Part shown: positions 2,531 to 63,809 of the stretch, one piece after another
Layout of the letters: each line of letters starts with the position of its first letter
Numbering within the stretch: position 1 is the first letter of the stretch
Source of the DNA: Streptomyces exfoliatus
Lineage (GTDB): Bacteria > Actinomycetota > Actinomycetes > Streptomycetales > Streptomycetaceae
NCBI RefSeq assembly: GCF_000725545.1
Contig: NZ_JNZP01000005.1
Span: 1 to 64,000 of the forward strand
Direction of reading: 5' to 3'
Length of the DNA stretch: 64,000 bases
Notes under the pieces: model-generated
What the model saw: the letters and a program-made list of their open reading frames with translations, nothing else
Database searches by the model: none
What the model was told of the DNA's origin: nothing
Program-made: the position numbers and the translations under genes

Positions 2531-4176
2531 AGGGCGAACTCGCACCAGACCGCTTTGCCGCCGCCGGGGGTGCGGCGGCTCCCCCAGGACGAGGCGATCG
2601 TCGCGATGATCGAGATTCCGCGGCCCGCCTCGTCCTCCGTCTCCGCTCTGCGGCGGCGCGGAAGGTGGTCGTCCCCGTCCGTCACCTCGATGATCAGGCG
2701 GCGGTCCGTGCGGCGCAGGCGCAGCCGCATGGGCGGGGTGCCGTGCTGGAGGGAGTTCGCCACGAGTTCGCTGGTGGCGAGGACGCCCAGGTCGCGCAGC
2801 TCGGTCGGGAAGCGCCAGGAGGACAGGACCCCGGAGGCGAAGGCACGCGCGCGGGGGGCGGCCTCCACCCCGCCGAGGAGTTCCAGGGCCGCGTTGTGGA
2901 AGAGCTCCGCGTCCGCTCCCTTGCGGGAGGGGTGCTGGACGACCAGGACGGCGACGTCGTCGTCGTGCTCCGCGGTGACTCCCAGGGAGCGGAGCAGCCG
3001 GTCGCAGACCACCTGGGGGGTGCCGCTGGCGCCGGAGAGGGCGCGGGCCAGGGCGGCGACGCCCTCGTCGATGTCCTCGCGGCGGCGCTCGACCAGGCCG
3101 TCGGTGTAGAGGACGGCGGTGGAGCCGGGCGGCAGCGCGATGGAGCCGGAGGCGTGGAGCCAGCCACCGGTGCCCAGCGGCGGTCCTGTCGGGTCCTCGG
3201 CGCGACGGACGCTGCCGTCCTCGTCCCGTACGAGGATCGGTAGGTGGCCCGCGGAGGCGTAGACCAGCTTTCCCTCGTTGGGGTCGTGGATCGCGTACAC
3301 ACAGGTGGCGATCTGGCTGGCGTCGATCTCGGCGGCGAGGCCGTCGAGGAGCTGCAGCACCTCGTGCGGGGGCAGGTCCAGGCGCGCGTAGGCCCGGACG
3401 GCGGTGCGGAGCTGGCCCATGACGGCGGCGGCGCGGACGCCGCGGCCCATCACGTCGCCGATGACGAGCGCGGTGCGTCCCGCGCCGAGGGTGATCACGT
3501 CGTACCAGTCGCCGCCGACCGCCGCGTCGGTGCCGCCGGGCTGGTAGGTGGCGGCGATCCGCAGGTCGTCGGGCTGTTCGAGGTCCTGCGGGAGCAGGGA
3601 GCGCTGGAGGGTGACGGCGGTCTCGCGGTGGCGGCGCTCGCTGGCGCGCAGCCGCTCGGCGGCCTCGGCGTGGTCGGTGACGTCCGCGGCGTGGACGAGG
3701 ACCCCGTCGTCGAGGTGGGGGCTGTCCACGGGCAGGCACGTGACCGTGTACGAACCGCCGTCCTGGGTGCGGCGGGACTTGACCGTGCGCGGCTTGCCGC
3801 TGCGCAGGACCTGGTCGATGAGGGGCAGCAGGCCGAGCTCCTCGGCCTCCGGGCAGGTGTCGGCGACGGTGGCGCCCGCGGGGCGGGGCCCGAAGGCGGC
3901 GGCATAGGCGTCGTTGACGTACGCGATGCGGTGCTCCGGGCCGTACACGAGCGCGACCAGGCCGGGGAGGCGGCCGAGGAGCTCCCGTACGGAGAAGTCC
4001 TCCAGGGTGGGGACGCCGGCGGCCTCGCCGGCCTCGGCCGGGTCGGGTGCCTCGTGGCCGAGCTGCCCCTGCTGCCGCGCGTACTCACCGCGGGCGGCGG
4101 GCACGGAGCCTTCGGTCCCCCGCGCCGCGCGGCGCTGTGTGCCGGGGAGCCGGGCGCTCCAACGGGTGAAGTTCAC
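2515..4176 (-). CDS. PAS-SpoIIE phosphatase-HATPase signalling protein
   Basis: A 553-residue soluble protein with three parts. Residues about 60-170 form a PAS sensor (YGPEHRIAYVNDAY). Residues about 210-405 form a PP2C/SpoIIE serine phosphatase, with metal-binding acidic residues in VGGDWYDV and IGDVMGRG and later LYTDGLVER. Residues about 425-550 form an HATPase_c domain of the RsbW type (TSELVANSLQHG, then GGGKAVWCEF). Proteins of this architecture both dephosphorylate anti-anti-sigma factors and may phosphorylate them. No partner STAS or RsbW gene is adjacent, so its target is not visible here. Streptomyces genomes carry dozens of such proteins. Confidence 0.88.
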   Translation of the reverse strand: MNFTRWSARLPGTQRRAARGTEGSVPAARGEYARQQGQLGHEAPDPAEAGEAAGVPTLEDFSVRELLGRLPGLVALVYGPEHRIAYVNDAYAAAFGPRPAGATVADTCPEAEELGLLPLIDQVLRSGKPRTVKSRRTQDGGSYTVTCLPVDSPHLDDGVLVHAADVTDHAEAAERLRASERRHRETAVTLQRSLLPQDLEQPDDLRIAATYQPGGTDAAVGGDWYDVITLGAGRTALVIGDVMGRGVRAAAVMGQLRTAVRAYARLDLPPHEVLQLLDGLAAEIDASQIATCVYAIHDPNEGKLVYASAGHLPILVRDEDGSVRRAEDPTGPPLGTGGWLHASGSIALPPGSTAVLYTDGLVERRREDIDEGVAALARALSGASGTPQVVCDRLLRSLGVTAEHDDDVAVLVVQHPSRKGADAELFHNAALELLGGVEAAPRARAFASGVLSSWRFPTELRDLGVLATSELVANSLQHGTPPMRLRLRRTDRRLIIEVTDGDDHLPRRRRAETEDEAGRGISIIATIASSWGSRRTPGGGKAVWCEFALPDKP

Positions 4177-61929: not shown

Positions 61930-62271
61930 GTGGCTCAGCGTGTGGTGGTCACTCTCTCCGACGACATGGACGGCGGAGAAGCGGCTGAGACGGTCGCCTT
62001 CGGTCTTGACGGGAAGATGTACGAGATCGACCTGAATGCTGCCAATGCAGAGAAACTCCGCAAGGCACTCGCCCCGTACCTCACCGCCGGGCGCAAGATC
62101 ACGGGCAGGGCGGCGGCCGGCCGGAACCCCTCGGTGGAGGCGTACACCCACACCGCCCTCGCTCCCGATCCGGCGGCGGTCCGCGCCTGGGCGCAGTCCA
62201 ACAAGATGGAGGTGCCGGCCCGCGGGCGCATCCCCAAGCGCGTCTACGAGGCCTTCCGCGCCGCGAGCTGA
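61930..62271 (+). CDS. lsrL: Lsr2 family nucleoid-associated protein (LsrL)
   Basis: A 113-residue Lsr2 paralogue. The N-terminal dimerisation part reads AQRVVVTLSDDMDGGEAAETV and YEIDLNAANAEKLRKAL. The C-terminal DNA-binding part ends VRAWAQSNKMEVPARGRIPKRV, with the RGR core that inserts into the AT-rich minor groove. Streptomyces has two Lsr2 proteins; the one next to purS and tRNA-Gly is LsrL. Lsr2 silences horizontally acquired and specialised-metabolism genes, while the role of LsrL is less defined. GTG 61930 follows AAAGGACCGATATCC. Confidence 0.9.
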   Translation: MAQRVVVTLSDDMDGGEAAETVAFGLDGKMYEIDLNAANAEKLRKALAPYLTAGRKITGRAAAGRNPSVEAYTHTALAPDPAAVRAWAQSNKMEVPARGRIPKRVYEAFRAAS

Positions 62272-62301: not shown

Positions 62302-62332
62302 TTGCATTGCACCCCCGATGATCCGGTAGAGT
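62302..62332 (+). promoter_or_regulatory. promoter of tRNA-Gly(UCC)
   Basis: TTGCAT (62302-62307), 19-bp spacer, TAGAGT (62327-62332), 50 bp before the tRNA. Another TAGAGT at 62489-62494 precedes the next tRNA-Gly in the same way, and TATAGT at 62714-62719 precedes the third, so each tRNA seems to have its own promoter. Confidence 0.55.
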
Positions 62333-62381
62333 CTGGATCACGCCGAGGGGCAAGGCCGAAAAGCCGAACCTCACGCAGCGT

Positions 62382-62453
62382 GCGGGTGTAGTTCAGTAGT
62401 AGAACATCCCCCTTCCAGGGGGAAGGCGCAGTGTGCAATTCCTGTCACCCGCT
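62382..62453 (+). tRNA. tRNA-Gly(UCC) with atypical D and T loops
   Basis: Acceptor GCGGGTG/CACCCGC, D-arm GTTC-AGTAGTA-GAAC, anticodon arm TCCCC-CTTCCAG-GGGGA giving UCC. The T-arm is unusual: 5' strand GCAGTG (one bulged T), loop TGCAATT, 3' strand CCTGT. GTTC of the T-arm is thus GTGC, and the D-loop has A-G where GG (18-19) is expected. The two tRNA-Gly(GCC) genes nearby are canonical in both places. Confidence 0.9.
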
Positions 62454-62533: not shown

Positions 62534-62606
62534 GCGGACGTGGCTCAGTTGGTAGAGCATCACCTTGCCAAGGTGAGGGTCGCGAGTTCGAATCTCGTCG
62601 TCCGCT
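62534..62606 (+). tRNA. tRNA-Gly(GCC), copy 1
   Basis: Acceptor GCGGACG/CGTCCGC, anticodon arm TCACC-TTGCCAA-GGTGA giving GCC, canonical T-loop TTCGAAT and GG in the D-loop. Confidence 0.97.
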
Positions 62607-62740: not shown

Positions 62741-62813
62741 GCGGACGTGGCTCAGTTGGTAGAGCATCACCTTGCCAAGGTGAGGGTCGCGAGTTCGAAT
62801 CTCGTCGTCCGCT
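62741..62813 (+). tRNA. tRNA-Gly(GCC), copy 2
   Basis: Identical over its 73 bases to copy 1 at 62534, with its own -10-like TATAGT (62714-62719) and its own terminator. Confidence 0.97.
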
Positions 62814-62900: not shown

Positions 62901-63809
62901 CTAGAAGCTGTCGGACCAGGTCTTGCCGGTCAGCAGCTCGTACGCCTCCAGGTACTTCGCGCGCGTGGCGTCCACGATCTCCTGCGGGAGGGGCGGCGGC
63001 GGCTGCTCGCTCTTGCGGTCCCAGCCCGAGGCCGGGGAGGTCAGCCAGTCCCGGACGAACTGCTTGTCGTACGAGGGCTGGGCACGGCCCGGCTCCCACT
63101 GCGCGGCCGGCCAGAACCGGGAGGAGTCCGGGGTGAGGACCTCGTCGGCCAGCACCAGGGACGTCCCGTCGAAGCCGAACTCGAACTTCGTGTCGGCGAG
63201 GATGATCCCGCGGTCGCGGGCGATGTCACGGGCCCGGCTGTACACGGCCAGGGTCGTCTGACGCAGCATCGCGGCCGTCTCGGCGCCGACCTGGCGGGCG
63301 ACCTCCTCGTACGACACGTTCTCGTCGTGGTCGCCGACCGCGGCCTTGGTGGCCGGGGTGAAGATCGGGGCGGGCAGCTCGGAGCCGTCGCTCAGACCCT
63401 CGGGGAGCGCCAGGCCGCAGACCGTACGGGACTCGACGTACTCGACGAGACCGGAGCCGGTGAGGTAGCCGCGGGCCACGCACTCGACCGGGATCATGTT
63501 CAGCGACTTGCAGATCAGCGTGCGGCCCGCCCAGTCGGCGGGGGCGCCGGCCGGCAGCTCGGTCGAGAGCACGTGGTGGGGGACCAGGTCGGAGAGCCGG
63601 TCGAACCACCACAGGGAAAGCTGGGTGAGGACCCGGCCCTTGTCGGGGATCTCGGTGGGCAGGACCCAGTCGTACGCGGACATGCGGTCGCTCGCCACCA
63701 TCACGAGGTCACCGGCCTCGTTCCGGTACAGGTCGCGCACCTTGCCCGTGTGGAGATGGGTGAGGCCCGGGACCTGGACAGGCTCGGGCTTTTCTACGAA
63801 TCCGGACAC
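62901..63809 (-). CDS. purC: phosphoribosylaminoimidazole-succinocarboxamide synthase
   Basis: A 302-residue enzyme of purine synthesis that joins CAIR and aspartate, using ATP, to make SAICAR. Motifs include GKVRDLYRNEAGDLVMVASDRMSAYD (given in parts: GKVRDLY, ASDRMSAYD), VECVARGYLTGSG, ILADTKFEFG and LADEVLTPDSSRFWP. It is the longer form, like yeast Ade1. GTG 63809 follows GCGGAGGAACC. Confidence 0.96.
   Translation of the reverse strand: MSGFVEKPEPVQVPGLTHLHTGKVRDLYRNEAGDLVMVASDRMSAYDWVLPTEIPDKGRVLTQLSLWWFDRLSDLVPHHVLSTELPAGAPADWAGRTLICKSLNMIPVECVARGYLTGSGLVEYVESRTVCGLALPEGLSDGSELPAPIFTPATKAAVGDHDENVSYEEVARQVGAETAAMLRQTTLAVYSRARDIARDRGIILADTKFEFGFDGTSLVLADEVLTPDSSRFWPAAQWEPGRAQPSYDKQFVRDWLTSPASGWDRKSEQPPPPLPQEIVDATRAKYLEAYELLTGKTWSDSF

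Follow-up and report, generated by a model that had tools for sequence, protein, structure and literature searches.

A divergent tRNA-Gly(UCC) conserved in Streptomyces and most Streptomycetaceae genera, a possible glycine donor outside translation

Locus and genomic setting

The window, here the whole 64,000-nucleotide stretch of Streptomyces exfoliatus DNA that was analysed, carries an odd tRNA-Gly(UCC) gene between an Lsr2-family gene and two normal tRNA-Gly(GCC) genes, with purC downstream (Table 1). The original prediction had placed a tRNA-Gly(UCC) at this site beside two normal tRNA-Gly(GCC) genes. Its coordinates proved exact: the tRNA is complete by the Rfam model RF00005, whose curated threshold it passes with its cloverleaf stems paired, and both neighbours were found by ARAGORN as well as by RF00005. 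Against RF00005 (gathering score 29), the odd tRNA scored 53.5 bits against 71.8 for each adjoining tRNA-Gly(GCC). ARAGORN overlooks the odd gene in the window and detects 27 of 68 unique odd sequences supplied with artificial flanks, so such genes are easily missed.

Table 1 Features at the odd tRNA locus; fractions refer to the set of 68 unique sequences.
Feature	Position	Strand	Remarks
Lsr2-family gene	61930..62271	+	Pfam PF11774 and PF23359; conserved upstream neighbour
Putative promoter, TTGCAC/TTGCAT ... TAGAGT	62307..62332	+	Read by eye
5' leader hairpin-like GGC-CGAAAA-GCC	62354..62365	+	Read by eye
Odd tRNA-Gly(UCC)	62382..62453	+	72 nt, CCA not encoded; RF00005 53.5 bits
A18 G19	62398..62399	+	A18 63/68, G19 68/68; G18 replaced, G19 kept
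Anticodon TCC	62414..62416	+	68/68
A51	62430	+	Partner U63 at 62443; canonical copy has G51-C63; A-U 68/68
Bulged T in T-stem, between positions 52 and 53	62432	+	RF00005 alignment
T54 G55 C56	62434..62436	+	U55 replaced by G; G55 63/68, T55 5/68, always with G18
Normal tRNA-Gly(GCC), copy 1	62534..62606	+	ARAGORN, RF00005
Normal tRNA-Gly(GCC), copy 2	62741..62813	+	ARAGORN, RF00005
purC, downstream neighbour	62901..63809	-	NF010568 and TIGR00081

The Lsr2-family gene lies upstream of the odd tRNA, on the same strand and within 600 nt, in all 34 positive loci tested; purC is nearby in only part of the loci tested. TAGAGT/TAAAGT-like boxes occur upstream of the tRNA in several other genera, and a consensus scan found no promoter-like site for the putative promoter of the window. 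In several genera the odd tRNA is preceded by a GGCCGAAAGGCC-like leader hairpin, in place of which g115 and g118 seem to have other hairpins (genera are given by our own labels).

The 7.87 Mb assembly yielded 67 RF00005 hits, and its glycine tRNAs comprise one odd UCC, one canonical UCC, one CCC and three GCC species. All 68 ARAGORN calls among the other tRNAs contain GTTC near the 3' end and GG within nucleotides 13–24, a count made on stretches covering 64 of the 66 further RF00005 hits, with some genes counted twice. The remaining two hits, read from the window, likewise have GTTC and GG.

Several peculiarities of the tRNA complement were recorded in passing. ARAGORN called a 95-nt tRNA-Ala(tgc) at window positions 3761-3855 that is absent from the genome's RF00005 list and is probably a false call. 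tRNA-Leu(UAA), the developmental bldA tRNA, is not among the ARAGORN or RF00005 tRNAs of the genome, perhaps because of a gap in the assembly or in the search. Two low-scoring tRNA-like genes (41 bits) lie at G000:C17:113970-114040 and G000:C8:98999-99071 (L057 and L058), one of them with an unclear anticodon (cgat).

Anatomy and covariation of the odd tRNA

Base frequencies were taken from 68 unique 72-nt sequences, drawn from 282 partly overlapping loci by a script that accepted only sequences beginning GC[AG]GG[CT]GTAG, with every acceptor-stem pair intact and 50 or more identities in 72; G1, C2, G4, G5 and G7-G10 are thus fixed by construction. This set leaves out a 71-nt odd tRNA in genome G457 (L192), which has one base fewer in the anticodon arm.

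The D-loop of the odd tRNA reads AGTAGTA and its T-loop TGCAATT, in agreement with the prediction that GTGC replaces GTTC in the T-arm. Two related claims stood in part. The T54/psi55 pair had been described as lost; U55 is indeed gone, but T54 and A58 are kept and a T54-A58 pair can still form. Likewise, the reported replacement of G18-G19 by A-G is correct at position 18, but G19 and C56 are both retained, so that only the 18-55 contact is replaced. The coordinated loss of the G18 and U55 partners was upheld, since positions 18 and 55 switch together throughout the set (A18/G55 in 63 sequences, G18/U55 in five, mixed states in none). This exchange may represent a single event, and the covariation is perhaps one observation.

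The predicted T-stem bulge is also present as one extra base relative to the canonical tRNA-Gly(UCC), and all 68 sequences carry it (T in 65, C in two, G in one, this last sequence reading better with the bulge one place earlier). The adjacent A51-U63 pair is invariant, while 49-65 is G-U in 62 sequences, including the window copy, and A-U in six. Positions 32-38 always form a Watson–Crick pair (C-G in 41, U-A in 27), and U-A is found there in the normal tRNA-Gly(CCC) and tRNA-Gly(GCC) of the genome as well. G19-C56, T54, A58, U33, A37 and the whole UCC anticodon, U34 included, do not vary; C50-G64 and U73 are equally constant, and U16 is present in 67 of 68. Because the other tRNAs of the genome have GTTC and GG and the odd form recurs in every genome of the genus searched, the odd elbow cannot be put down to chance.

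A second set of 25 unique variants, found without a fixed pattern among 70 loci read for 101 matching genomes, also holds G1, C2 and G10. Here 99.4% of cells pair and 24 cells carry changes in both partners, where shuffles give 8.0 (0/500 as high). The number of pairs altered in both partners (four) and of further pair types (six) was not above the shuffles, which reached these values in 69/500 and 500/500 runs. The stems thus pair with compensatory changes, as expected of the conserved tRNA that had been proposed.

The minimum-energy fold contains a different T-arm hairpin, GCGC-AGU-GUGC, which might suit an RNA with a role other than donating glycine, such as a regulatory tRNA, a decoy or a source of tRNA fragments. 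This hairpin can form in 58 of the 68 sequences, whereas the cloverleaf T-stem holds in 67, and we rejected it as the working structure. The cloverleaf stem together with the retained glycyl-tRNA synthetase (GlyRS) identity bases points to charging, and we consider a non-donor role improbable.

Distribution, gain and loss

In a DNA search the odd tRNA was present in 101/101 genomes of the genus, the genome studied here included, at 85–100% identity over all 72 nt, and 30 of these, again including our own, hold an identical copy. The recurrence across Streptomyces implied by the original prediction is therefore complete in this sample. Copies lie close together as triplets in four of the 101 genomes and as pairs in two, with at least four in one named record; such clustering is consistent with demand.

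A covariance model (R1) built from the 25 variants gave the window copy 103.6 bits and the canonical tRNA-Gly(UCC) 68.1, a score that no other canonical glycine tRNA of the genome exceeded. In a class-wide sample (n=296), only the 28 same-genus genomes reached 97 bits, and the best score outside the genus among the matches listed was 73.9, on a 71-nt span. Within the family, 90/121 genomes and 15/17 genera matched at E <= 1e-16 with a lowest score of 86.2 bits; in two other families of the order (f47 and f48), no R1 score exceeded 73.5. Among the copies read, a subset of the 90 positive family genomes, the elbow is altered in 13 genera and normal (G18/U55), with the bulge, in g115 and g118. 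A GTGC-type tRNA-Gly(UCC) motif was found in 40/40 same-genus genomes and 0/354 other genomes of the class, although it assumes GTAG, one D-loop length and GTGC and is blind to the g115/g118 form and to other designs. Named hosts among the matches listed include Streptomyces, Streptacidiphilus and Actinacidiphila, and one g116 tRNA sequence is identical to that of a named Streptacidiphilus record.

The 31 family genomes without the odd tRNA belong to g127 (27/27), g124 (3/3) and g129 (1/2), and ten of them rechecked at E <= 1e-11 contained canonical glycine tRNAs only. Presence differs between the g129 genomes G415 and G404, through separate loss or an assembly gap. An empty site was seen in nine of the ten tRNA-negative genomes inspected (six of g127 and three of g124), with the Lsr2-family gene followed directly by tRNA-Gly(GCC) 142–170 bases past the end of the protein match; in the tenth, G415, the corresponding site was not found. 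In a PurC tree with 23 rows, rooted at the midpoint and with f47 outside, g115 and g118 grouped together (88/93), separate from the remainder, and the single g127 genome joined two partial g116 rows (96/91). Loss of the odd tRNA in g127 is the simplest reading of this thin tree.

Presence in every genus genome and in 15 of the 17 family genera means that the odd tRNA is not a decayed copy. A decaying gene or the remnant of an integration site might be suspected where ARAGORN so often fails, but this distribution already contradicts it, and the compensatory stem changes, the unvarying Lsr2-family neighbour and searches of phage and plasmid collections that gave no match at E 1e-5 speak against it too. 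We find decay hardly credible. A mobile or phage origin was rejected on the same searches.

Redundancy for decoding

The lack of any other UCC-reading tRNA-Gly, together with normal EF-Tu binding and no preference by FemX, had been named as grounds for abandoning the original reading. These grounds do not apply, since a second, canonical gene was found in the same genome (G000:C4:181236-181306). A pattern for this gene with up to three mismatches matched 117/121 family genomes. Its apparent absence from genus g118 (four pattern misses) was an artefact of the pattern, as a diverged canonical copy is found there; by pattern or by model, the gene is present in every sampled family genome. The two UCC genes share 49 of 72 aligned positions and differ at 23 (22 substitutions and the extra base), 14 of which fall in the variable loop or the anticodon stem. 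The two genes agree fully in acceptor stem, anticodon and discriminator, whereas the canonical tRNA has no bulge and carries G51-C63, G18/U55 and C32-A38. With a separate canonical gene in its own genome and throughout the family, the odd tRNA is spare for decoding.

Specialised decoding is nevertheless the main rival explanation. The odd tRNA would then be a translation-competent second tRNA-Gly(UCC) that tolerates A18-G55 and the bulge and reads GGA/GGG under particular conditions, e.g., during development. The invariant U33, A37, UCC anticodon, G19-C56 and T54-A58, along with a 32-38 pair that covaries, could reflect continued decoding, and the normal elbow of g115 and g118 and the location beside two normal tRNA-Gly genes fit as well. 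However, every sampled family genome has the canonical gene, 31 of 121 manage without the odd one, and A51-U63, the bulge and the lost 18-55 contact are together hard to explain by decoding. On balance, we consider this explanation rather unlikely.

Charging and the Fem-type enzymes

Bacterial GlyRS recognises U73, G1-C72, C2-G71, C35 and C36, to which the Thermus enzyme adds C50-G64, G10 and U16, according to the excerpts of PMC9976931. All of these known identity bases are kept in the odd tRNA (U16 in 67/68), with U73, C2-G71, C35 and C36 found in 68/68 sequences (C2 fixed by the pattern) and 25/25 variants. As its known identity bases are intact, GlyRS would probably charge the odd tRNA.

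In the portions of PMC4790382 available, S. coelicolor FemX adds a single glycine per stem peptide and VanK adds one glycine on D-Lac precursors; precursors without the glycine branch would be lethal, and the branch is held vital for wall cross-linking. FemAB-family genes (PF02388, which also matches in 3/14 control genomes) occurred in 30/30 genomes tested, and the positives without the odd tRNA include 11 family members and 4/4 order outgroups. The presence or absence of FemAB was thus discarded as a correlate, and it follows that the bridging enzymes do not need the odd tRNA, which at most separates pools. Our genome has two FemAB-family genes, the best ~156 kb from the odd tRNA on the same contig; we take its product to be the FemX ortholog, although the N-terminal part of this protein that was tested scored only 30.2 bits against the NCBIfam FemX model, far below the cut-off of 500. 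The distance and the low score both count against the donor reading.

A tree of the 30 best FemX hits, some of them probably paralogs (e.g., that of G415), put the tRNA-negative genera g124 and g127 in separate places. In it, g123 and g128 (A18/G55) adjoin g115 and g118 (G18/U55), which disfavours a simple stepwise order of elbow change. A dedicated EF-Tu partner was also rejected, as the number of EF-Tu copies (TIGR00485, E <= 1e-120, 34 genomes) does not track the odd tRNA: our genome has one copy, and two-copy genomes occur with and without it.

Known aminoacyl-tRNA-dependent natural-product pathways are strain-specific, whereas the odd tRNA is in 101/101 genus genomes, so a donor for some other non-ribosomal reaction appears a slim prospect. 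Such a reaction would involve Fem-like natural-product ligases, for example the BD-12 enzyme Orf11, or some Gly-tRNA-dependent enzyme common to the family, and Streptomyces does have several aminoacyl-tRNA-dependent GNAT-fold enzymes, including the Gly-tRNA-dependent Orf11, in the part of PMC12945691 available.

A glycine donor kept off the ribosome

We give about an even chance to the reading that the odd tRNA is a glycine donor that can be charged but is disfavoured in translation, and that it most plausibly serves a FemX-type enzyme and the single-glycine bridge of the wall. A duplicated tRNA-Gly(UCC) would have been tuned away from the ribosome. GlyRS would charge it through its intact identity bases, and we propose that A51-U63, the T-stem bulge and A-G at 18-55 cause EF-Tu to hold the glycylated tRNA poorly, hinder ribosomal accommodation, or both. 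A pool of Gly-tRNA would then remain for an acceptor outside the ribosome, the likeliest being the Fem-type enzymes that attach the one bridge glycine to precursors of the wall. FemX would not need the odd tRNA, which would only relieve competition with translation, a role that fits the lineages with FemAB genes and without the odd tRNA. Weak EF-Tu binding and use by FemX are both features that we infer.

The peptidoglycan-type reading of the original prediction therefore survives in part. The canonical second UCC gene, compensated conservation, retained GlyRS bases and A51-U63 speak for it, but the 30/30 occurrence of FemAB breaks a strict link, G19 is kept, the strong G-U at 49-65 persists in 62/68 sequences, and g115 and g118 combine the bulge with a normal elbow.

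More tentatively, and with the balance of our judgement somewhat against it, Actinobacteria may have independently evolved a wall-dedicated tRNA from a duplicate UCC gene through the bulge and A51-U63 plus an A18/G55 swap as a unit, fixed in nearly all Streptomycetaceae genera. Lineages that lack the tRNA include a probable Kitasatospora, with a partly meso-DAP wall. The Kitasatospora wall contains LL- and meso-DAP, glycine and galactose in the excerpt of PMC8236941. If g127 is Kitasatospora, the odd tRNA is absent from a lineage whose wall is mixed but does contain glycine.

Streptomyces and most of its close relatives thus have a spare glycine tRNA whose fold is expected to weaken ribosomal use. 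With glycine loading probably retained, it may feed wall building. We found no description of glycine sharing between protein and wall synthesis in Streptomyces in the open-licence PMC papers as far as their available text extends, and none of the odd tRNA in such papers, although an earlier description is possible. Since the tRNA is a single gene backed up by a canonical one, the donor idea can be tested directly, and the 18/55 exchange with the T-stem bulge is a natural experiment on the tRNA features required by EF-Tu and the ribosome.

Comparison with known odd tRNAs

Streptomyces tRNA-ProA and ProX, with ProRSx, mistranslate alanine codons and often lie beside the partner synthetase gene, in the sections of PMC10365949 available. 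They share with the odd tRNA that both are lineage-specific odd tRNAs of related bacteria. Unlike these tRNAs as excerpted, the odd tRNA has an anticodon that fits glycine, and it stands beside an Lsr2-family gene and normal tRNAs.

Closer parallels come from staphylococci. Giannouli et al. in 2009 reportedly described S. aureus non-proteinogenic tRNA-Gly isoacceptors in pentaglycine bridge synthesis. In the original prediction, the staphylococcal tRNA-Gly(UCC) used for these bridges carries GUGC for GTpsiC. As far as the excerpts of PMC4052509, PMC4810233 and PMC9976931 describe them, these isoacceptors serve pentaglycine bridge synthesis, and in those that evade EF-Tu the strong pairs are replaced by A49-U65 and A51-U63, with positions 18-19 occupied by UU or CU (PMC4052509). 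Set against this partial account, the odd tRNA shares being spare beside proteinogenic copies, the loss of G18, and A51-U63 in 68/68 sequences; Fem-type genes are present in the same cell, and the GUGC mark is found in 63/68. In place of the excerpted UU or CU at 18-19 it has AG in 63/68 and GG in five, G19 staying, and in place of A49-U65 it has mostly G49-U65 (62/68).

The odd tRNA further differs in its T-stem bulge and A18/G55 exchange, with the staphylococcal side taken from the same partial descriptions, in usually being one gene (up to at least four), and in its restriction, within the genomes searched, to Streptomycetaceae. The Streptomyces wall bridge is one glycine in the excerpted text, compared with the staphylococcal pentaglycine. 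The restriction to Streptomycetaceae, with the staphylococcal side known by description, suggests an independent origin. Although it lacks two of the sequence marks and has turned up in one actinobacterial family only, the odd tRNA would work like the staphylococcal tRNAs.
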